DNA of 64,000 bases from assembly GCF_032854445.1 (NCBI RefSeq), contig NC_088302.1, forward strand, positions 41,854,191 to 41,918,190. Reading direction: 5' to 3'. The translations under genes were made by a program, and so were the position numbers. Every line of letters starts with the position of its first letter. Positions within the stretch are counted from its first letter, which is position 1. The notes beneath the pieces were generated by a model. The model saw only the letters and a program-made list of their open reading frames with translations, was not told where the DNA came from and did not search any database. This DNA is from Liolophura sinensis. Taxonomy: Eukaryota; Mollusca; Polyplacophora; Chitonida; Chitonidae. This document shows positions 41,467 through 57,595 of the stretch, one piece after another.

Positions 41467-41830
41467 GTGAGTGAGTGAGTGCTTGAGGTTTAACGTCATA
41501 CTTAACAATTTTTAGTCATATGACGACGAAGGAGTCATTAGGGTGCATGTATGTGTAATTTATCTCCTTGTTGCAGGAGGGATTTTCTCCCCTCTTTTAT
41601 CTAATGCTGCTTCACTGAGACGACTTACCAAAGGCAAATTAGCCGTCCCGCCCGAGCCATTATATTGATACAGTTCAACCAGTCGTTGCACTATCCTTTT
41701 CATGCTGAACTCCAAGCAAGGAAGTTAACTTCTCTTTTAAATTGTTAGGTGTGACTTGACCCAGGATTGATCCTGGATCTACCGCTCCTGAAGCGGATGC
41801 TTCCATTATGTCCATGGGCCTTGCGATGGC
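41467..41830 (-). repeat. SINE family B, near full length
   Basis: On the plus strand the sequence starts gtgagtgagtgagtgcttga, continues with cgtcatacttaacaattttt and tcatatgacgacgaaggagt, and ends near gatcctggatctaccgctcc. It is the same as 47702-48076 but the tRNA-like head is damaged. Confidence 0.82.
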
Positions 41831-42529
41831 GAGTAGTCAGTGGCACTCTCTTCAAGTGAAAAAATTAATTGAGTTTTGTCTTTTAAGGATATTTTAAGTG
41901 AATTTCTGCCTCTTTTTTGTATTTCATGCCAGTATGGTTGCAAATACGTGGCAGTTATGTGGACCCATGTTCACACAGTAGGATTTGTTGTATTTTGATT
42001 TGATTAGTTCAATCTGACAAGTTTGTAAGCCAAATGCTTATAATGAACACAGCTTTTAGAGACTGAGAACCAAGTTTTTTAAGAATTGTTTCCAGTAAAC
42101 ATGTCCATTTATGGTTTTGTGTCTCCAAGTTGACTTTGAAGCATGTACATGACTTGAAAATAATAATAAAAATAGAGAAAGAAAGAAAAGTAAATGTTAA
42201 ACAGCCACTGATAGGAGTAGCAGATAGGACTCCTTTCCCTGTTACATTATTGGAAAGGATTGATGTTCCTCGTTTACATGACTGGGTTTGACTCACACTG
42301 CTGTGTTACATCACTTTTTACTTTTCTGGATAGGACTCTCATTCCCCTGTTACATGACTGGATAGGAATCCCTTTACATTACTCTTAATTACTCATTTCA
42401 GTGAAACATTTCTGTTAAGGATTCCCTTTCCCATTATATTACTGAATTGAACTCGCATTCCTCTTTTAGATTACTGGAGACATGCCCTATCACTGGATAG
42501 GACTCTCAGTGCCCTCTTCCATCACTAGA

Positions 42530-42863: not shown

Positions 42864-42923
42864 ATAGTTCAGTACAATGTGAAAATGTACCAGACATCTT
42901 ACTGAAGGATGACCTACAAAAGG
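42864..42923 (+). other. Possible upstream PRDM9 exon
   Basis: A good acceptor (tttttctgtttcag) and donor (aaaagg/gtatgt) enclose 60 bases with one open frame, reading SSVQCENVPDILLKDD. That frame ends in phase 1, whereas the KRAB exon at 43450 starts in phase 0. The exon is therefore either separated from it by an unseen small exon or not part of the gene. Confidence 0.3.
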
Positions 42924-43449: not shown

Positions 43450-46400
43450 CCTCGCCACGTACGTTCTTCATCAGCAGAAGACTCTGACGCCAACCCTGAT
43501 GATGAGGACTTGGCAGCTTTCTTCTCCATCACAAACCTGCGGCGCTTCTCTGCACTGGAGAGAAAGAGACTCAGAAACCTGAAACTGAATTATGAAACGT
43601 TAACGTCTATGGGTAAACTTATCAGTTTTCCCTCTTTGGTTAAATAAGTGTTTAACTCTTCATTGACTATGTAAATATCTGCACATGCTGGTAAAAAGAT
43701 GATTTAGCTCTTCCTATTCTCTGCCAAGAGTACAGCCGCACTCCAGTCGAATATCCTGCGCCCATAATGGCTCCGCGGTTGGCGATGGTAACATCTTGGC
43801 CGGAGGATCTGAACATCATTTTGCAACATTCTGCAGCGTATGATTTTACAATATCGACACGTGTATGTTCTTGGGACGAGTCAGCATGAAAATAGCAGTG
43901 TAACTGTTTAGATGTCTGCAGATTATTTACTGATGATGTCACAGCATCATCCAGCAGTGTTCCAATCTATACAAGCATGTAATTTTAAAATTAACATTGT
44001 ATTATATATGCTTGGTGTGTGCGTGCACAATATTCCCCAGTAGTAGGCTACAAACACCCGTGCTGTAGACCCGGTGTGTACATGCACAATAGTCCCCAGT
44101 ATTAGACTACAAGCAGTGGTGCTACAGACTGGGTGTGTTTGTGCACAGTAGTCACAAGTAGTAGACTACAAACGCCTGTGCTATAGACTCGGTGTGTGCG
44201 TGCACAATAGTCCCTAGTAGTAGACTACAAGCAGAGGTGCTACATACTTGGTGTGCGTGCACAGTAGTCACAAGTAGTAGACTACAAACGCCTGTGCTAT
44301 AGACTCGGTGTATGCGTGCACAATAGTCCCTAGTAGTAGACTACAAACACTGGTGCTACAGACTCGGTGTGTGCGTGCACAATAGTCCCCCGTAGTAGAC
44401 TACAAACACCGATGTTATAGACTCGGTGTGTGCATGCACAATAGTCCCCAGTAGTAGGCTACAAACACTGGTGCTATAGACTCGGTGTGTGTGTGCACAA
44501 TAGTCCCCAGTAGTAAGCTACAAACACCTGTGCTATAGACTTGGTGTGTGTGTGCACAGTAGTCACAAGTAGTAGACTACAATCACCTGTGCCTTAGAAT
44601 TTTGCGGGAAATTGTTGAGCGCAGAAAAATATTTCTCGTTAATACATGAAGACACGGCAGATTTGCTGTAAATAAGTTTGTAACAAACACAGCATGAACG
44701 CTGACAAATCTTGATCAGGATTGCAGGATGATAACCTCATGATGGTACCTTCTTGGGTTCACCATGGGTGTAAGATCGTGCCAGGATGACAGTAGGGAGT
44801 GCATCAGGTTCGTGTAAGATGGCTGAACCATCCACATATGGACATGGGATATTCGGCTAGGATCTGTCTGTACTGTCCTCTGGTGTACATGTAGTTTTGA
44901 GCTATCAACATCCAGTTTTATTTTGTTTTTCAGGTCTTTTGGTTGAAAGGCCTGATTTTATGAAATCAAAGAGAAAACGCTTTTGTCAAGAAGGTGAAGA
45001 TGTTAGGTGGAAGGGGGATAACTCTGATGCCAATGATCCAGAATGGACTCCCAGTATGGAGTTGTATGAAGTTCCAGTGAGGACCAGAAAAGGTAGATGA
45101 ACGTCTGTTATAGTTATTACGAATGCAGCTTAAAAATGAATATGATGAAGACAGTGAGATGAAATTTTAGTTTTGAGCACAGTGTTGATTTATTATTTAC
45201 AGGCAGATGTTCCATTTATTCTTGAAATGATTAGATGTTAATATTTACTTCACCGATGTTTCATAAAAATTCTGTATCACAACATATAATTAAGGGACCA
45301 CGCAGGTTAACATGAAACTTGTAACTGCAGTTTAACATGGCAACGGGCATCAAATTTGCAAGAGTATATTCTTTGAGTCTTTCGTTCCTGACTATGAGTA
45401 GAAGATCAAAGCCACTTAATCTCTGTGCTAGCTTAAAGTACTAGTCCCATTGGATGTGATACCTCTCAGTCTCGGGTTCAAAACCAGGGTATTCTTTTTC
45501 ATTTGGTTTCCTTTTTTGTATAGCTGTCATTACTATTACCAATGTAATTGGTGCAAAGCATACAGAGCCGTTTTTGCTCTCGTTCACATTATTATGTTTA
45601 TTTATTTAATTTTGACTGATTGACTTGAAATTTTTCAGCAAAATTCCCCAATACCTGAAATTGTTCAATGGGTAATTACGCTTTTTCTAGGTTACTATGT
45701 CTTCTCAAGGACCAGTGAACACATTATTCTGAAACTTGATATGCGGGTACATGCAGACTCATCTGAGATATATTAAGTTTGCAAAAAATATCCACCTCCT
45801 TAAAAATTGTGAAAGCTTGCCATTGGCCACGGTTGTAACATCACAACCAGTTTTGAAGATTCAATTTTTGGTTTTACATATTCTGGTGTATTTTGGGTTG
45901 GTTATTCCAGATTTTGGTCTATCTTTGTAACTTTTTGAGATATAGTCAAAAGCTAAATTTAGTTACAAAAATTTAGTGGACTATGGCAAGAAATCTGAAA
46001 CTTACACCAAAAAGTAGCCCTAGACATGCATTCTTTGAGCTAGGAAGCATTCAAATGACACCAGTGTTCTTTCAGACAGAGATGTTCAACACTGTGCCTG
46101 TAACATTGATTTAGAAGATAACTGGACTGATATATACGCTCATTTAACTGGCTGGTTTCTGCTGCACTGTCCATGATTTTCCAAAATGGCTATTCACTTA
46201 GATATAGCCCTTCAGTCTTCTTTCTCATTGTGTACAATGATAATTACGACAACAAAGTGGACCCATGCCAAACTGCTTTGCAGTTCCAGTTTTCAACTTA
46301 TTTTTGTTCATTGTTTTTTCTCTTAGTAGACCTAAAGCTTGCCAGGAAACCATTGAGAAAGAACAAGGTGGGAGTTACAATTTTTTCCTCTCACAAAAAG

Positions 46401-49400
46401 CTGCAGTATTTTGTAGTGTACATATTACAGGCCTATTCATGCAGTTTAGCTTTGGGTTGCATATGAAGCAGACCTTGTAAGAATATTTGCATGTTCCGAA
46501 TGAGGATGGGCATGTTTGAAAGCATATTTTTAGCTCAAAACTATTTGCTTAACTGATGAACCTACCACGAGGTGTTTGAAATCAGGAAGTCATACATGTA
46601 AAACCAGTTTTTCCATGAGAAGTACAAAGTGAAGTGGTCTGAGCCAAGGGGAGATAATATGCTTTTCTAAACATGCAGATTTTGACTGAGTCTCTTGAAA
46701 CAGAGAATTGAGATACTGTAATTCTTTGACCTTTTCGCATGTTTGCAAGGTGTTTATTCAAGTAAATTCTGAAGGCATTATCCTGTGTAGACTGATAAAA
46801 TCATACTTTTTGTGAAGCCCTGAAAATGGCATATCCAACCAAAGTAGTTTTGTTTCCAAACTCAAATTAAAATGTGCATAAATTACACAGAAAGTTGATC
46901 TTTCATATGCTAAATGATTGAGGAATTAAATTAAACAAATTTAAATCAGTTGCAGTGAATTATTATTTTGTGTTATCTAATGCCTTGCATTAGAGTATTA
47001 CAATACTTTTATCGGTGGGCATGCTTACACAGTATGTTTTCCTTGTTACATACTCTGCTTCTTTTTTTTTGTCAGACAAAGGTATCAAAGCTGAGTAGCC
47101 GTGATGAGGTCACCCTCTCTGCAGACTTTAATATACCTCAAGAAGTGCCCAGCCCACCTTTGACTCGACCAAGCAACAAGCTCAGGAGGTTTATTCCAAC
47201 GGACGAGCAGGAATTATGTATGTTTCATAAATCAACTATTAAGTAATTCAGTAAAACTTGCTTACACAAGTTTGTGGAATAATAAGTTTATAGGAAAGTC
47301 AATTTGCTTTTAATTGATAATTGTTAATTGTTGTGATAACTTTATTGTTGTAATAAAAATTGTATTTTGTGACAGCTATTAAAGGGAAAGAGTGCTCAAA
47401 ATCGAAGGGTTCATCACTAGATGGACCAAACAATGCATAAAAATACTTTCATTTATTTTTTTTTAGATTTTTTTGATGAGAGTTAAAGGTATTCAGACGT
47501 TTCAGTTCTAAGGTGGCCTTTATGGACCTTACTACTAGTGTTGAGGAATTCTGAGGCCACAGGAAGTTTTTCCAACTTTAAACAGGACATTGAATGTTGG
47601 AATAGCTCTGTTTGTCATTGAGTAAAAGATTACTGAAATAGTTTTCTCAAAAATTTCTTCACACTGATGAACATAAGGGAATAAAATGTTCATGTGAAAA
47701 ATGAGTGAGTGAGTGAGTGAGTGCTTGGGGTTTAACGTCGTACTTAACAATTTTTCAGTCATATGACGACGAAGGAATCCTTAGGGTGCATGCACGTGTA
47801 ATGTGCCTCCTTGTTGCAGGACGGATTTCCACCGCTCTTTTATCTAGTGCTGCTTCACTGAGACGACTTACCGAAGGCAAGTAAGCCGCCCCGCCCGAGC
47901 CATTATACTGATACGGGTCAACCAGTCGTTGCACTATCCCCTTCATGCTGAACGCCAAGCGAGGAAGTTACAACTTCCTCTTTTAAAGTCTTAGGTGTGA
48001 CTCGATCAAGGATTGATCCTGGATCTACCGGTCCCGAAGCGGACGCTCTACCAACTGTGCTATCCAGGCCGGTCTGTGAAAAATGAAGACAAATAAGTAA
48101 TTTTTTGGGTGAACCTTCTTGTGAATTACAAACTTCCTTGTGCTGTGTAACTTGGTATAGTCTAAGTGTTAATTATCTGTGTGGATTTGTGTTACTTGTG
48201 CCTCTAAAGTAGTCATATCTTTATCTGTGTGGATTTGTGTCACTTGTGCCCTTAAAGTAGTCATATCTGTATCTGTGTAGATTTGTGTTACTTGTCCCTC
48301 TAAAGTAGTCATATCTGTATCTGTGTGGATCTGTGTTTTGTGTGCCTCTAAAGTAGTCATATCTGTATCTGTGTGGATTTGTGTTACTTGTGCCTCTAAA
48401 GTAGTCATATCTGTATCTGTGTAGGTTTGTGTTACTTGTGCCTCTAAAGTAGTCATATCTGTATCTGTGTGGATTTGTGTCGCTTGTGCCTCTAAAGTAG
48501 TCATATCTGTATCTGTGTGGATTTGTGTTACTTGTGCCTCTAAAGTAGTCATATCTGTATCTGTGTAAATCTGTGTTGTATCTGTGTGTTGTGGTATCTC
48601 TCTGTCCTTCTCTTCCCTCAGACTGCGAGGACTGTGGCCTGGATTACCTAGACGAGTGCCCGTTCCATGGCCCTCTTACCATTGTGAAGAACACAAAGGT
48701 AACACAATGGACCTGAACCTCCATGCACAAAGAATTTGTAGCTACCACTGATTGTAATCGTACAATTGAGTTTATATTTGATTGCAGAAAGGATATTTAA
48801 GGGGAATTGTGACTTTTTGAAGTTATCATATGCTAAATTTGACTTATGCCTAGCTTGATCTGTGTAAATGGTTTTACAAATAACTTTTTATTGCTTTGAT
48901 TCTCAATAGAGTTCTATGTCAGCAGCTAACAACAACACCATGAGAAAAAATTCTTGTAACAACTTTTTGATCCTGATGTTTTTATGATTTGATTTTCAAG
49001 ACTGTATGACCTTGTAAATATGTCTTGAGCTTCTGGGATAGTCCACATTTGTCACAGATTAGATGATTTTTAAGTTTTATTTTATACCCCCCTCCAACTC
49101 TCACATTGAAAAAAACATTTGTTCTGGCCATAAAACAACAACTTAAATTGGTTTGGCCTAACATGTGTGATTGGTTCACCACAGGCTACCGCTGGAGGCC
49201 GTGAACATGCCTGGCATACCCTGCCTGCCTGTTTGTCTGTTTGGCCGTCCAAGATCCCTGGTGCTGGCCTGGGTGTATGGACGAATGAGCTGATCCACAA
49301 GAGAACAAGATTTGGACCGTATGAGGGAGACCTGATCACAGATTGGGACAGAGCTGAAGCCTCAGGGTATTGCTGGAAGGTGAACAGTTAGTTTTCCATG

Positions 49401-52400
49401 CAGATTAGTGTATTTTGTTACCTCTTGTAAATCTCGAACCTTTTCAACCACTAAAGCACTTTTGTCAGTGGAATTTATACATACAGTTATTTATATGATG
49501 CAAAAGTGAGTTGTTTTTGGCATTAAAGAGGCAAGCGTCATAAAACCATGCAAATTATTTCTCTACACTCAATAGTTCTCTCAGAATGTTTCAAAATATT
49601 GGTTGCAGAGGATTTTGCATTAGAAATTAGCTGCTTATCTGTGTGGATTCGTTCATGTGATGAACAACATATCCATATCTTTACTTTTCTGAAAAAAAAA
49701 ACAGTTAGAGAAATGTAATTTTAGCTTTCAGCACAACTAATATCTGTCCTAAAACTAAGATTTACTGTAATTCTCCAACGTTTTCACTTGTTTGCAAGCT
49801 GTTTTTTTCAAGCATATTCTGAAGGCATTATTCTGTGGTGACTGATAAAATAATACTTCTTGCGAAGATCTGAAAGTGGCAAGTCCAACCAATGTAGTTT
49901 TGTCCCCAAAATCAAATTAAAAATGTGCATTAAGTGCACTGGAAGTGTTTCATATGTGAAATTCAGGAGTTAGAGTATTACAGTATATTGAAGTTTAATG
50001 AGAGGAATTATTTTCCCCATTTTCAGATTGGCCGAGGAGATCTGTTTGTTGATGCTAAGAATCAGGAAACCTCAAACTGGCTGCGCTACGTCAATTGCTG
50101 TCGGAGTGTGACAGAGCAGAACTTGATAGCGTACCAGTACAGGGGCCAGATCTATTACCGAACCATCGTGGATGTGCCCCCAGATACAGAGCTCCTTGTG
50201 TGGTATGGGAACGATTATGGACGAGAACTGGGAGTCAAGCAAGGTACCAATCAGAGGACCCTAATTCCTCAACCTTTTCGGGCATGAAAGAGCAACTTTC
50301 AGTGCAATTTACGCATATTTTTGATTTGATTTTTGAGACAAAACTTCATTGGTTGGACTGCCCAGTTTCAGCGCTTTACAAAAAGTACAACTTTATCACT
50401 CAACATGGAAAAATTCTTTCAGAATATGATTGAATAAACACCTTGCAAACATGCGAAAAGGTTGAAGAATTACAGTAATGTCTGTGTGCAATGTCATTAT
50501 TTCCTAGCCTTTACACATAATATTTGTGAAGTTCATGCAATGAAATGATTCTAATTTGGCCATCAGAATGTTAAATATGTCTCTCCAGGGAGAGAGAGGT
50601 GTCTCTAGGTGTCACTAGGTGTCTTTCCTGTAACACGCCAGTTTCAAGGCCAACAGTATACAGACATGGGGCCAGTTGCACAAAGTCAGAATTTAAAGGA
50701 GAAAAAAACTTAAAAACATGACACTATAGGCTGAAAAGAGCACATTTTTTTCTATCTGGTGGTGCCTGCTGCATCATTTTGCAATTTTTCCTCGCCATAC
50801 ACGTAAAGCCTGAAAACGGCAAAGCTGGCATAAATCGCTGAGTCCATCGCGTCCTCCATCTTTAACACCCTGTAATTTATGCTGAGGGTGTGTTGCCTCT
50901 CAGGCAATGAGAGTCGTTAAAACTGTCGGCTTGCTCGTGTAAACCTGGAACCGTTGTCCAATATTCTGGTTTCCCAATCGTCAAGCGGAAAACAAACTGT
51001 ACTTTTCACTACCTTCTGGGAAGAAGAGTTCCACCAGAAATGTATGAACTGCACTTCGGCGGTTCCGACAGCAATTCTTCTAACACAGAAGACTTCAGGG
51101 CTAGTTCTTAGGCTAAATGGAGTCGCCCACAGCAGATTTTGGCGCTGGCTTTGTTTATAATTTATCAGCTTGAGGTACATATTAGAATTTTTTTATGGCA
51201 TGCACCTGCGAGGAATTGCATACTCTTTTCAATGGTATTTGATTGATATTTAAATTTTCTTCTCCTTTAAAGTTCTCAGTTTTCGGTACTGGAAGTTGAA
51301 ATTTTGATAAGGTGTATAAAAACTTTAATTTCTAAAGCCAAACACTAAGCTTTAAGATCACTTTTTAAATTTTGACTTAAGTCAGAAAGGACTGAATAGG
51401 GTGCAGCACTAGGCGCTTCACAGTTCCACAATATCGCATGCATCTTCTCAAATCAGAAATGGAAATGGAGGTTCATGTGGAAATGTACTAATATGTTTTT
51501 GTTTATGTTTTTCTTAGAGCAAATGTACAACAGTTTCTTTTATCCCCATAAAAGGAAGAGTACGTCTCCTGACCCTGTATATCATGATGCGCTTTGGGAA
51601 TCAGACAGTGAAAAGAGAACATGGAGAAAATGTCCTGAGGTGTGGAAAGATGCTTTCATAAGCGCAAAGTCTGCGAGAAAAATGAAAGATGAGAGAAACC
51701 TTCGAGTCAAAGAACAAGGCTCTTTTTCACCTGTTACACAAGGGGGAGGTGACCCTGAGCAGGGTGATACTGCCAAAGATCACAGACTTTTCTCCAGGTC
51801 TAACAGTAACGTGTTAAAAGGATCTAACTGCAGCCCAGCATCAGTGGATCAGATAACAGCTGCAGACAATGTTACTATGAATTCACAGCCCAAAGTGAGT
51901 TGTTCAAAGAGGACTAGGGATCTGGATACGTCTCAGTCTCTTGTACAAAGAGTTGAGAATTCTCCTTGTCCAGTAAGTGAACAGGGTTTCAAGCCAGAAT
52001 CATGTAAAGAGTATCAGAGCTTTCAGGGGAAACATTCATACCTCTTGAGGGTAAAATCCAAGGTGCCATCTTTGTCTCCAGAGCATTTAGTAAAGACACA
52101 TGGTGAAAAGCCAGAATCATGTGAAGAGAGTAAAAACTCTCATAGGTTGTGTCGGACTGCAGAACAATTGAAAAGGACTCGAGGAGCAAAACCAGAGTCA
52201 TGTAAAGAGGACCGAAGTGGTCATTCAAAGCAAGGGAAACAAAGCTGTCAATTTCACTTTCACCCCACACAATTTTATTCAGATAAGGCTTGCTCTGTGC
52301 AGAAAGACTCATGTAATCAGTTGGCAAAAGAACATTGCAAATTGTCTGTCTCCACAGAAAGCAAGCTAAGGACTAGCTCACGGAAGAAAAACCCCTGTGC

Positions 52401-54117
52401 TCAGTTATCCAGAAACCCTGACGAATTGTCTGTGTTCACAGAAAACAAGGTCAGATCCTACTCAGAGAAGAAATACTCCTGTGCTCAGTTGCCGAAAGAG
52501 CCCTTCGATTCGCCAATGTCCGCAGAAGACAATCTCAGAACTCGATCAGGGAAGATATACTCCTGTGCTCAGTTGAAAAGGAAGCCCCATCAAAACTTCA
52601 TGCAAACTTGCTCAAGAAAGAAAGATTCCTGTGTCCAGTTGACAGAAAAGCCCAGTGTGTCATCTCTGTCCTCAGAAAGTGCCATCAAAACTTGCCTGAA
52701 GAACAAAGCCTCTGAAGGACATGAACATAAGAATGCTTTGTCTGAAAGCTTATGCTGGAGGCAGAGAAATGAATGTGTTCCCTGTATTGTGTTATTGGAA
52801 TGTCTAAAGATGAAGCCGATCTCAATATCAGCCAAACCTGAAATGGATTGTCCATTAGACAGTTGCTCCAGTCAAAAATCAGCAGAGAAGAGGGCTGGAA
52901 ATGTTCAAAGATCAGATGGTGATGTAACCAGTAAGATGTGTTTGTGCGAGGACAAGAAGGTACATCCCAAAACACTTGAGGGCATACATTCCTTGACAGA
53001 CAGAGAAGTGCAGGGGAAATCCCCATGCAATGAAGACAGGCTGGAAGAAGCAATGCAGAGTATCAGGAATTCTAGACAGTTTACGAAAATGAAAAATCCC
53101 AACTGCAAAGGAAACAAAGTGTGTCAAGAAGAGAAAACCTCCATTCAGAAATCTCTTCAGGCATCAGACAATGAGTTTAGTGATGAAATTCCTGCAGCTA
53201 TTCAGGATGAACCAAAAAGTAGCCACATAACTTCCGTAAAGATCATTGTTGAATCAAGCACGGATGATAATGGTGAGGCACAAACAGAAAGAGAGAAGAT
53301 AGAGGAAGAACTGCAAGCTGTTAATGAAGTTTTGCCTTTGGACGATAAGGACATGGTAAGTCTAAGTGATGATACAGCTAATCATGTTTATACTGCCAAC
53401 AGTAGAGGTCTAGACTGCCAAAGAGGAACATGCTCTGATATCAATGGGATCAGTTCTGATAATATAAGAGATTTCAGTCACAGAAATGGAGAAGATAGTG
53501 GTCAGTTAGGCCAACCATTCCGGTCAGAGGATATATGGGTTTTCTACTCTTCTCTAAATCTGGACTGTGGGTTTGAAATCAACAGTGGAGATTGCAACCG
53601 GGAAATGTGTGATATATTGACAAAGAAGCAGTGCCAAGAGAAAAGACAGAAATGCTATCAAATTAGAACTGGTTGTGATTTTTATGAAAGTGAATTGTAT
53701 ACAAGCTTTGATGAGGATTTTAGTGAACTGCAGATGGGTTGTGATTCTAGATCTGAGTGCACTGAATCACAGGGAAATTGTCATTTCACAGATAGAGTTA
53801 CAGATCATCCTGTTGACAGCAAAAATGAAAATTATGCTGATGAGCAAATGGAAGACTCATGTCTCGACAGATATAAATGCTATCAAGACCACTCTACTAG
53901 AATAAGTAATGAGTGTAGCTCTGATTGTCAAATGGAAAACTGGTGTCTCTGCGATCTTAGATGTTGTTGGGAAAAGTTCGGGCCATGTGTTTCTAGTGAC
54001 CACAAGAGCCAGAATGACCTTGCTCAAGGTCACCACCCACTGTGGCAGATATACTCTGAACTAAATACTGACATTCGCGCCAACATTAGCAATCTTCAAA
54101 AACAGCTAATTTATTGA
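43450..54117 (+). CDS. PRDM9: PRDM9 (Meisetz) orthologue: KRAB-SSXRD-SET methyltransferase with eroded zinc-finger array; 5' end missing
   Basis: Eight exons join in frame to 1197 codons plus TGA: 43450-43612, 44934-45092, 46327-46367, 47076-47217, 48622-48698, 49185-49379, 50027-50243, 51518-54117. PRDM9 is the nuclear germline methyltransferase that marks H3K4 and H3K36 and, through its zinc fingers, places recombination hotspots in many vertebrates. The KRAB-like part reads DLAAFFSITNLRRFSALERK ending in GLLVERPDFM, close to PRDM9's own KRAB. The SSXRD-like DPEWTPSMELYEVP is in exon 2. YCEDCGLDYLDECPFHGP is the pre-SET zinc knuckle. The SET core shows IPGAGLGVWTN, FGPYEGD, NWLRYVNC, QIYYRT and LLVWYGNDYGRELG, so the family's catalytic tyrosines are kept. 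The last exon (866 residues) lacks intact C2H2 fingers. Its middle is a degenerate 28-residue repeat array and its end is acidic and cysteine-rich. No initiator Met is found in the first exon listed, so more 5' exons exist. Confidence 0.92.
44010..44600. repeat. Minisatellite, ~59-60-base unit, in PRDM9 intron
   Basis: About ten units contain tcggtgtgtgcgtgcacaat, agtccccagtagtagactac and aaacacctgtgctatagac. It lies between the KRAB-like and SSXRD-like exons. Confidence 0.88.
46708..46890. repeat. Dispersed repeat / MITE arm, copy 1
   Basis: The sequence (actgtaattctttgaccttt, tcgcatgtttgcaaggtgtt, ttctgaaggcattatcctgt) is closely repeated at 49760-49935 and its end sequence forms the inverted arms of 50258-50478. 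It is intronic in PRDM9. Confidence 0.65.
47702..48076 (-). repeat. SINE family B, full length, in PRDM9 intron
   Basis: On the minus strand it starts with the tRNA-like head ggcctggatagcacagttgg and tagagcgtccgcttcggg (A box), then a B-box-like ggatcaatcc. It runs through cgcttggcgttcagcatgaa and ends at the (GTGA)n tail, seen on the plus strand as gtgagtgagtgagtgagtgc. It is tRNA-derived and non-coding. The 67- and 75-residue frames over it are shadows. Confidence 0.87.
48173..48560. repeat. 48-base minisatellite in PRDM9 intron
   Basis: Eight units contain gtcatatctgtatctgtgtg, gatttgtgttacttgtgcct and ctaaagta. Because 48 is a multiple of three the minus strand is open for 127 residues as a 16-residue repeat (MTTLEAQVTQIHTDTD), but it lies antisense inside an intron with no other support. 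Confidence 0.9.
49185..50243 (+). other. PRDM9: PRDM9 SET (PR) domain exons
   Basis: Two exons (49185-49379 and 50027-50243, residues about 195-331 of the reconstructed protein) carry the whole SET domain. The S-adenosylmethionine/lysine-channel motifs are IPGAGLGVWTN, RYVNC, NLIAYQYRGQIYYRT and ELLVWYGNDYGRELG. The tyrosines of FGPYEG, IYYRT and VWYG correspond to those shown to matter in mammalian PRDM9. No stop or frameshift is present, so activity is plausible. Confidence 0.88.
49760..49935. repeat. Dispersed repeat / MITE arm, copy 2
   Basis: The sequence ttactgtaattctccaacgt, ttctgaaggcattattctgt and gcaagtccaaccaatgtagt matches 46708-46890 over its whole length. It lies in the intron between the two SET exons. 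Confidence 0.65.
50258..50478. mobile_element. MITE of the same family, with inverted ends
   Basis: The left end ctaattcctcaaccttttcg (about 50260) and the right end, read on the minus strand as actgtaattcttcaaccttt then tcgcatgtttgcaaggtg, are inverted relatives. The element is about 220 bases and overlaps the intron start just after SET exon 2. Confidence 0.5.
50692..51274. mobile_element. Possible MITE in last PRDM9 intron
   Basis: The start tttaaaggagaaaaaaactt and the reverse complement of the end (tttaaaggagaagaaaattt) match, with aaaagag blocks inside both arms. The G+C-richer centre reads as an 87-residue minus frame that I do not recognise. Confidence 0.45.
51984..52715 (+). other. 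PRDM9: Vestigial C2H2 zinc-finger array of PRDM9
   Basis: Residues about 487-730 contain finger-like linkers: GFKPESCKE, HLVKTHGEKPESCEES and QLKRTRGAKPESCKED, which align with HLRTHTGEKPYKCEEC. Then come units beginning DSCNQLAKE, NPCAQLSRN, YSCAQLPKE and YSCAQLKRK whose cysteine codons lie at 52312, 52396, 52480 and 52564, exactly 84 bases apart, and a further unit DSCVQLTEK at 52630. In each, the first finger cysteine remains, the second is leucine, and the two histidines are replaced (for example KLRTSSRKK for HLRTHTGEK). The frame stays open. It cannot bind zinc in the normal way. Confidence 0.7.
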
Positions 54118-55264: not shown

Positions 55265-55890
55265 GAGGCTCAGTATAACAGAAAACTGGCTCAGTATGAC
55301 AGACAGTGTTCTCAGTATGACAGAACACTGGCTCAGTATGACAGAACAATGGCTCAGTATGACAGACAGTGTTCTCAGTATGACAGAACACTGGCTCAGT
55401 ATGACAGAACACTGGCTCAGTATGACAGGACACTGGCTCAGTATGACAGGACGCTGTTCTCAATGTGACAACGTTCTCAGTATGACAGACAGTGTTCTCT
55501 GTGTGACATACAGTGTTTTCAGTATGAGAGACAGTGTTCTCAGTATGACAGAACACTGGCTCAGTATGACAGAACGCTGGCTCAGTATGACAGGACACTG
55601 GCTCAGTATGACAGGACGCTGTTCTCAATGTGACAATGTTCTCAGTATGACAGACAGTATTCTCTGTGTGAGAGTGCTCTCAGTGTGACACAGTGTTTTC
55701 AGTATGAGAGACAGTGTTCTCAGTATGACAGAACACTGGCTCAGTATGACAGAACACTGGCTCAGTATGACAGGACACTGGCTCAGTATGACAGGACGCT
55801 GTTCTCAATGTGACAATGTTCTCAGTATGACAGACAGTGTTCTCTGTGTGAGAGTGTTCTCAGTGTGACATACAGTGTTTTCAGTATGAC
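55265..55890. repeat. 21-base minisatellite with higher-order repeats
   Basis: Units of the type cagtatgacagaacactggc, with variants cagtatgacagacagtgttc and caatgtgacaacgttct, fill the region. A composite block of about 190 bases is repeated two to three times (compare 55494-55640, 55690-55830). The minus strand reads CHTEP/CHTENTV repeats over 164 residues as a by-product. Confidence 0.9.
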
Positions 55891-57029
55891 AGTGTTCTCA
55901 GCAAAGTGAGCAGAAGTTGTTACACATTATCATATATTGTCAAAAGAAGTAACCTTCTATAATGAAGCATATGCATAATCTTTTTGAGAATGTGCTAGTT
56001 TATCTGCATTGTCAAACATTGATGCATGTGTAAGCCTGACTTTATTTCCAAATGTTTGGTTATTCTGAATTGAATTGTGGTTCCAGGCTACACAGGATTA
56101 AGTTACAAAGTCCTTTTTCCACAAACCTGCTGGTTATGTTCTGTTATAACATACTGTATATCTTCTGAAGTACTTCTGGAATTAATGCTTGTTAAAGTCG
56201 ACAAGACAACCTGCAGTTACACAAGGAGATATTTTGGGATCAGTGCTAGCCCAGAGCCAACTCTGACTTTTATACTAGCAAGAAAAGGTGGCCTGAACTA
56301 AGCCGTCTCTGATATACCAAATATTGAAGGCCTAAATTAGAATGGATCAATTTAGTCCACTGTTCTAGTCTGTGTAAAGGCAAAATGGCAATTGCCGACA
56401 CATATACGTGCTTAGTGACTGGTGGAAGTGCATTGCCCTGGACCCCCATCTTGTAGGTGAAGCAAAATGTAAAATTGTTGAATGCAGAAATCATTTCAAA
56501 CTCTAATTTCTTCAAAGTCTAATTTCTCCCATGATAAATTTCCCCATTTTGAACCTCCTTTTTTTCCTGCGTGGAGAATGTAATGGAATGGATTTCTAGT
56601 CTTACGTTTGACTTACACATGTAGCGGATCAGTGGCCGAGTGTATTGTACATGTATGAATTAACGAAAAGTTCAACAGTTATGTTTTTCTTCTTTCTTTT
56701 TTTAAAAATTTTTTACACATGTCTATATTTCTGTGATCACTCTGCATTTTGGTTTTGTTCTGCAGAATAAATTGCAGTTTTAGTTGAATTATTGACATAT
56801 GTCTTCTTGATTTGGATTTTGTTAGACAATTGCTGGCCTCATGCCTTGAATATTTATGCGCTTAGAGTAAAGCCTACTTCAAACCCAGAGGGCACATTAG
56901 CAGTTAGATCCATCAATCTGGGATCCGTTCCATTTGCTTCCCAGTTGCCACTGCATGAGGTAGTGGCGCCACTGCTATTGGCAGAATTGGTGGCATGTAT
57001 TGTAGCGCCATAACTCGTGATCTCTCGGA
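55891..57029. other. No gene recognised
   Basis: Non-repetitive A+T-rich sequence without credible exons. A possible AATAAA lies at about 56765-56770. Confidence 0.45.
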
Positions 57030-57595
57030 ACCACCTACCAATAGATCATTAATTACATCCGAAGGTGACCTTCCAGTATTCCCTACATGTACCAATAGAT
57101 CATTAATTACATCCAAATGTGACCTCCCAGTACCACCTCCAATAGATTTTTAATTACATCCAATTGTGACCTTTCACTACCATGTGCCAATAGATCGTTC
57201 AATACATCCAAATGTGACATCCCAGTACCACTTACCAATAGATTTTTAATTACACCCAAATGTGACCTCCCAGTACCACTTACCAATAAATGATTTATTA
57301 CATCCAAATGTGACCTTATTACCACCTCCCAACAGATCATTAATTATATCCAAAGGTGACCTCCTAGTACCACTTACCAACAGATCATCAATTGCATCCA
57401 AATGTGGCCTCTCACTACCATGTACCAATAGATCTTTCAATACATCCAAATGTGACCTCCCAGTACCACCTATCAAAAGATCATTGATTACCTCCAAATG
57501 TGACCTCCCAGTATCACCTACCAATAGATCATTAATTACATCCAAATATGACCTCCAAGTACCACTTATGTGTACCAATACATAATTACTTGCAT
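57030..57595. repeat. Minisatellite, ~48-51-base unit
   Basis: About eleven units contain accaatagatcattaattac, atccaaatgtgacctcccag and taccactt. Frames on both strands stay open because most units are multiples of three, giving a GTGRSHLDVINDLLV repeat on the minus strand. There is no splice or start context. Confidence 0.88.

Follow-up and report, generated by a model that had tools for sequence, protein, structure and literature searches.

A second, divergent PRDM9-type gene without a recognisable zinc-finger array beside an array-bearing PRDM9 in the chiton Liolophura sinensis

The genome of the chiton Liolophura sinensis carries a second, divergent PRDM9-type gene on contig C8, in addition to an array-bearing PRDM9-type gene on contig C2 of the same genome (hereafter the C2 gene). 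In mammals, PRDM9 sets the chromosomal sites of recombination. Judged from its sequence, the C8 gene is most likely a methyltransferase paralogue in which DNA-sequence targeting has been lost. The sequence-only reading of this DNA had described a last exon that stays open and lacks a recognisable DNA-reading array, and the exon at 51518-54117 bears out both points. The stretch analysed (the window) comprises 64 kb, positions 41854191-41918190 of the 58.4-Mb contig C8 in an assembly of 609.46 Mb and 632 contigs, and coordinates within it are counted from its first letter. The species was renamed from Liolophura japonica to L. sinensis by a correction (PMC12441733).

Exon structure and PRDM9 affinity of the window gene

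Comparison with solved structures upheld the proposal that the gene is of PRDM9 type. The best PDB structure for the zinc knuckle and SET domain together is PRDM9 (4c1q; 2.2e-43, 151 bits), and in a ranking that covers the PRDM proteins with solved structures, PRDM9 entries (151.1, 146, and 145.5 bits) are followed by PRDM11 at 89.8 bits. The SET domain is identical at 75 of 160 positions (47%) to each of two mammalian PRDM9 chains. PRDM11 is a SET protein not known to carry a finger array and resembles the window gene in combining a PR/SET domain with a knuckle. An identification of the window gene as PRDM11 was rejected, as its SET domain is nearer to PRDM9 in both identity (47% versus 34%) and score (151 versus 90 bits). 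The three positions equivalent to the PRDM9 catalytic tyrosines, named as Y276, Y341, and Y357 in the part of PMC5519329 used here, are all tyrosine across SET exons 1 and 2 of the window gene, whereas PRDM11 carries phenylalanine at the position of Y341.

The further claim that KRAB, SSXRD, and SET had been kept together stood for the SET domain, which is intact together with the knuckle preceding it, and was weakened for the SSXRD-like segment, whose similarity to the C2 copy was reached by 25 of 2,000 shuffles. All four knuckle ligands (C, C, C, and H) are retained under the ligand numbering that we assumed for this gene. Pfam SSXRD matched neither the window peptide nor the C2 peptide, which was searched in a form containing some wrong letters. 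The KRAB-like exon and the exon after it align with their C2 counterparts with a score of 118, compared with a shuffle maximum of 60 (0/2,000). Pfam KRAB matched neither the window copy nor the C2 copy, and the name "KRAB-like" refers to the place of the exon at 43450-43612 in the gene and to its putative resemblance to the KRAB of (human) PRDM9. The first coding exon was not located, and a candidate at 42864 was discarded after failing to join in frame.

Table 1. Exons and repeat units of the window gene (window coordinates)
Feature	Position	Strand	Remarks
KRAB-like exon	43450..43612	+	AG/GT sites; ends in phase 1 inside a Gly codon
Exon after KRAB (LLVERPDFM...DANDPEWTP)	44934..45092	+	Shares its split Gly codon with the C2 gene
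Possible small exon, uncertain boundaries	46330..46367	+	Evidence limited to an open frame flanked by candidate splice sites
Exon with weak SSXRD-like segment	47076..47217	+	Compatible with the knuckle exon in splice sites and phase
Zinc-knuckle exon (CxxC...C..H)	48622..48698	+	No ligand missing (C, C, C, H)
SET/PR domain exon 1	49185..49379	+	Joined domain: Pfam PRDM2_PR 4.2e-40, SET 3e-10; PDB PRDM9 2.2e-43
SET/PR domain exon 2	50027..50243	+	Pfam PRDM2_PR 9.5e-28
Terminal exon, 865 codons and stop, without recognisable C2H2 finger	51518..54117	+	In-phase junction from SET exon 2
Upstream degenerate units, linker-like GFKPESC, KTHGEKPESC, and RTRGAKPESC, with a 22-residue unit at 52246	51985..52311	+	
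Block of five 28-residue (84-base) repeat units, with the fourth cut to 22 residues	52312..52713	+	

The stop-free frame spans 905 codons (51400-54117), 865 of which fall inside the terminal exon; the figure of 866 codons given by the sequence-only reading corresponds to these 865 and the stop. In 300 first-order Markov simulations no chance open frame exceeded 176 codons, and the splice sites leading from the knuckle to the last exon are present and in phase. The encoded tail contains 113 serines and 49 cysteines among its 865 residues. By one crude index, charge-hydropathy, the tail falls on the disordered side (0.390 versus a line of 0.417) and the SET domain on the folded side (0.447 versus 0.422). 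Near the C terminus of the tail there is a Cys-rich stretch (53914-53988; CSSDCQMENWCLCDLRCCWEKFGPC), which could be an independent metal-binding site. A genome search with the exon as query, in which eight candidates were scored, gave no other copy of the tail at E<=0.001.

Several minisatellites lie in and around the gene, at 44014-44592 (59 bases), 48174-48577 (48 bases), 55269-55892 (21/165-180 bases), and 57030-57565 (48 bases), and some of them hold long chance reading frames. Similar stretches at about 41469-41850 and 47699-48075 form an apparent dispersed repeat (GTTTAACGTC.TACTTAAC...), which we take to be of a type common in mollusc genomes. A search of a plasmid collection, uninformative for this question, returned no match to the window sequence.

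Repeat units of the terminal exon and their possible finger ancestry

The terminal exon contains a tandem repeat with the period of a C2H2 finger array. Cysteine codons recur at exactly 84 bases (52312, 52396, 52480, and 52564), as had been noticed from the letters, and the fifth unit seen at the same time is also present. Its Cys codon at 52630 comes just 66 bases after 52564, which means that the unit before it, the fourth, is shortened. The top self-match of the exon is at a lag of 28 residues (score 155, in 52285-52713), while 2,000 shuffles evaluated over 142 lags did not exceed 64. At the DNA level, 162 of 271 bases in 52290-52560 are identical at lag 84, which is the only lag between 60 and 110 to exceed 36% identity. 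Farther upstream, the three segments that had been aligned with the finger linker were recovered as units with Cys codons at 52003, 52120, and 52201, the middle one after HLVKTHGEKPESC, and a fourth upstream unit of 22 residues was found at 52246.

Whatever their origin, the repeat units are without C2H2 finger ligands. The observation that the ligands are gone was borne out in that none of the nine units carries the C2H2 set: the third position after the cysteine is leucine in all five downstream units and Y, S, D, and H in the four upstream ones, histidine never occurs at C+16, and it occurs once at C+20, in the unit at 52201. The four full units share 46 to 58 of 84 bases in pairwise comparison and, unlike the C2 fingers, are not homogenised. 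Selective constraint on the units, which the sequence-only reading had wished to see measured, turned out to be mild at best, with dN/dS of 0.24 to 0.99 over six between-unit pairs and pooled values of pN 0.34 and pS 0.50 for the same pairs.

Searches for intact fingers were negative in the exon and around it. No Pfam family was reported in the exon at E<=10, a search in which the HMMER filters discard most matches above about 0.1. A finger model of 28 positions, based on 33 of the 43 fingers collected in this genome and run with the filters off, gave no match in the exon at E<=1000, and NCBIfam, a prokaryote-oriented library, gave none in the exon either. A C2H2 regular expression applied to other frames and to downstream DNA returned isolated singles, two in the window and one in the next 20 kb, with neither tandem arrangement nor linker, and these were set aside. 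Alternative 3' exons with intact fingers, which the sequence-only reading had wished to see checked, were not seen either. With no tandem finger frame in the 64-kb window or the 20 kb downstream, on either strand, and a stop in the terminal exon itself, it is most improbable that alternative splicing adds fingers from another exon and so yields a normal PRDM9 protein.

On whether these repeats are eroded fingers, as the sequence-only reading had proposed, the linker and the remainder of the unit give different answers. A linker profile fits best at the unit cysteine (offset 0) in both unit groups. The best single site, KTHGEKPESC, scores 14.5 bits and was equalled by 7 of 5,000 shuffles. The summed linker score was reached in 0 of 5,000 shuffles, a value that overstates significance because this kind of shuffling breaks up the repeats. 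The fair value is 18 of 3,000 column shuffles matching the score of the four full units, in a test that covers four of the five downstream units (the shortened one omitted) and was chosen after the motif had been seen. The linker-like motif, in its correct register, is suggestive of finger ancestry, whereas comparison of the whole finger remained at chance. Profile-to-profile alignment of all five downstream units with the finger (hhalign) gave 66/300, ungapped comparison with the full finger 612/1,000 (558/1,000 with the ligand columns masked), and gapped comparison 9/150 (55/150 when also ligand-masked). The last exon likewise shows no significant similarity to the C2 finger exon (119/300). 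Finger erosion is unproven because the whole-unit comparisons are at chance.

These whole-finger results favour a reading in which the tail repeats were never fingers and the gene instead gained or evolved a terminal exon of other origin that carries a tandem repeat of 28 residues, its linker likeness being partly chance. Against it stand the exact 84-base period, the location in the last exon of a gene of this type, behind a phase-1 intron, the linker in register in both unit groups with its 18/3,000, and the top linker site reached by so few shuffles. We regard an origin unrelated to fingers as unlikely, if by no means negligible, and consider that the window repeats probably descend from fingers. 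A degenerate post-SET finger near CPEVWKDAF, plausible by eye, was also considered and rejected: comparison of the C2 post-SET finger with the first 110 residues of the exon gave 1855/2,000, a result that likewise sits well with repeats that were never fingers. The PDB alignment of the SET domain stops before the CPEVWKDAF segment.

The array-bearing paralogue and the relation of the two copies

The second SET exon, used as a genome query, matched 12 places, the second best being the C2 gene; frames were listed for eight of them, and the C2 gene alone was followed up. It extends from a KRAB-like motif at 15650952 to the end of the finger frame near 15659122 (contig C2) and comprises a KRAB-like exon, an SSXRD-like exon, a knuckle, a SET domain, and a terminal exon with 12 intact, near-identical fingers. 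At helix positions -1, 3, and 6, as we assigned them by finger numbering, pN is 0.42 and pS 0.14, compared with 0.05 and 0.13 at the other 25 codons. This contrast covers all 12 fingers that carry the motif FKCTWC, among them the atypical last finger, and pools non-independent pairs without a formal test. The C2 array looks active, with change apparently concentrated at DNA-contact residues, a PRDM9 hallmark. The part of PMC2779102 used here describes a similar pattern in the PRDM9 arrays of rodents, primates, and Nematostella, and reports concerted evolution of the Lottia and Capitella arrays with one selected codon in Capitella.

Because the C2 gene carries 12 intact fingers, the lineage has kept an array, and the suggestion that it had lost its DNA-reading array is contradicted. 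The corresponding explanation, that sequence-directed PRDM9 was lost in this lineage, holds for the window gene taken alone and is virtually untenable beside a gene in the same genome with an intact array and change at DNA-contact residues. The C2 gene points to array evolution of the PRDM9 type in chitons, and for recombination biology it is arguably the more useful of the two. C11 (region 27909955) encodes a CW zinc finger with a PWWP domain after it, an arrangement that we take to be the ZCWPW1/2 architecture. In the part of PMC8892340 used here, the presence of ZCWPW1/2 in vertebrates is described as coupled to that of PRDM9, and the corresponding part of PMC12111275 reports high expression of Prdm9 and Zcwpw2 in the mature male gonad of the Pacific oyster.

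The two chiton copies are identical at 77 of 161 positions (48%) over the knuckle and SET domain. This is scarcely above their identity to the two mammalian PRDM9 chains (47% for the window copy, 44% and 42% for the C2 copy), so the duplication may be old or the sequences may have changed fast. Both genes share introns in position and phase between the KRAB-like and the next exon, at the start of the knuckle, and between the two SET exons. The last exon is preceded in each gene by a phase-1 intron, but in the C2 gene SET exon 2 extends about 20 codons further, so that these terminal introns agree in phase and differ in exact position. The shared introns indicate that genomic DNA was duplicated and that the window gene is no retrocopy. 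In the best tree the chiton copies group together with a support of 80, and neither alternative placement is rejected (p-AU 0.106 for both, in a test that warned of too few replicates). This tree is weak because it uses short single-exon outgroups and puts PRDM11 with a chiton sequence from C1. The SET1 exon of the C2 gene found three places at E<=1, namely C2, C8, and a weak C1 match with an internal stop, while the KRAB-like exon of the window gene matched itself only. No third PRDM9-type copy was seen in these searches, of which the KRAB-exon query has low sensitivity, since it missed even the known C2 copy.

With a complete copy elsewhere in the genome, the window gene is possibly redundant, and its missing array and the dN/dS of its units, which is not low, would also suit a decaying pseudogene that is open by luck. 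Such decay is highly improbable in view of the 865 open codons, the in-phase splice sites from the knuckle to the last exon, and a SET domain no more distant from mammalian PRDM9 than the one in the fingered copy, though the two copies are only 48% alike.

Possible roles of the two copies and comparison with known systems

We lean slightly towards an account in which, after an old duplication, the fingered C2 copy kept (or took) the sequence-directed marking of recombination sites and the window copy became a finger-less methyltransferase. The array of the window copy would have been lost, probably by substitution within the 84-base array, leaving its rhythm and linkers, and the repeats may now serve as spacer or interaction sequence rather than as zinc fingers. 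The enzyme would then be directed not by DNA sequence but by contacts that its KRAB-like region and Ser/Lys/Cys-rich tail make with other proteins. A more specific division of labour, in which the C2 protein picks the sites and the finger-less copy, as a PRDM9-type methyltransferase that is still competent, is brought in by protein contacts of its KRAB-like region or tail to deposit or extend H3K4/H3K36 marks during meiosis, is a speculative extension to which we give little weight; if true, two PRDM9 genes would in part divide targeting and catalysis between them.

No published description of the window gene was found among the matches listed in open-access literature on PRDM9 in molluscs and chitons and on finger-less paralogues. 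A separate survey of animal Prdm genes is reported by Vervoort et al. Invertebrate PRDM9 genes with arrays are described in the parts of the literature used here for Lottia (23 fingers), Capitella (11 fingers), and Nematostella (PMC2779102), and for the mollusc Mulinia with 10 fingers (PMC10451705). The C2 gene is a chiton example of such a fingered PRDM9 (Meisetz). The window gene resembles PRDM9 (Meisetz) in its knuckle, in its SET domain with the catalytic tyrosines, and perhaps in its KRAB-like exon, and differs from it in lacking a recognisable array and in its weak SSXRD-like segment.

Array-less PRDM9 relatives are already known from vertebrates. The part of PMC5519329 used here lists eight PRDM7 genes from primates and one PRDM9 from a bat (Baker et al.), the majority entirely without an array; these carry substitutions at Y357 or Y276, whereas the window copy keeps all three tyrosines and, unlike them, retains the array rhythm. 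Teleost PRDM9 beta, as described there, is similar in being a PRDM9 duplicate of changed architecture and is otherwise a mirror image of the window gene, having neither KRAB nor SSXRD and showing catalytic substitutions (PMC5519329); the beta-type gene of swordtails has a finger array that evolves slowly (PMC5519329). Among the vertebrates covered in that part of the source, catalytic tyrosine substitutions are described only in PRDM9 genes without KRAB, SSXRD, or the array (PMC5519329). What is distinctive here is that the three catalytic tyrosines are kept without an array, beside an array-bearing PRDM9 in the same animal, and the chiton could thus serve to ask what a PRDM9 methyltransferase does when uncoupled from DNA reading.
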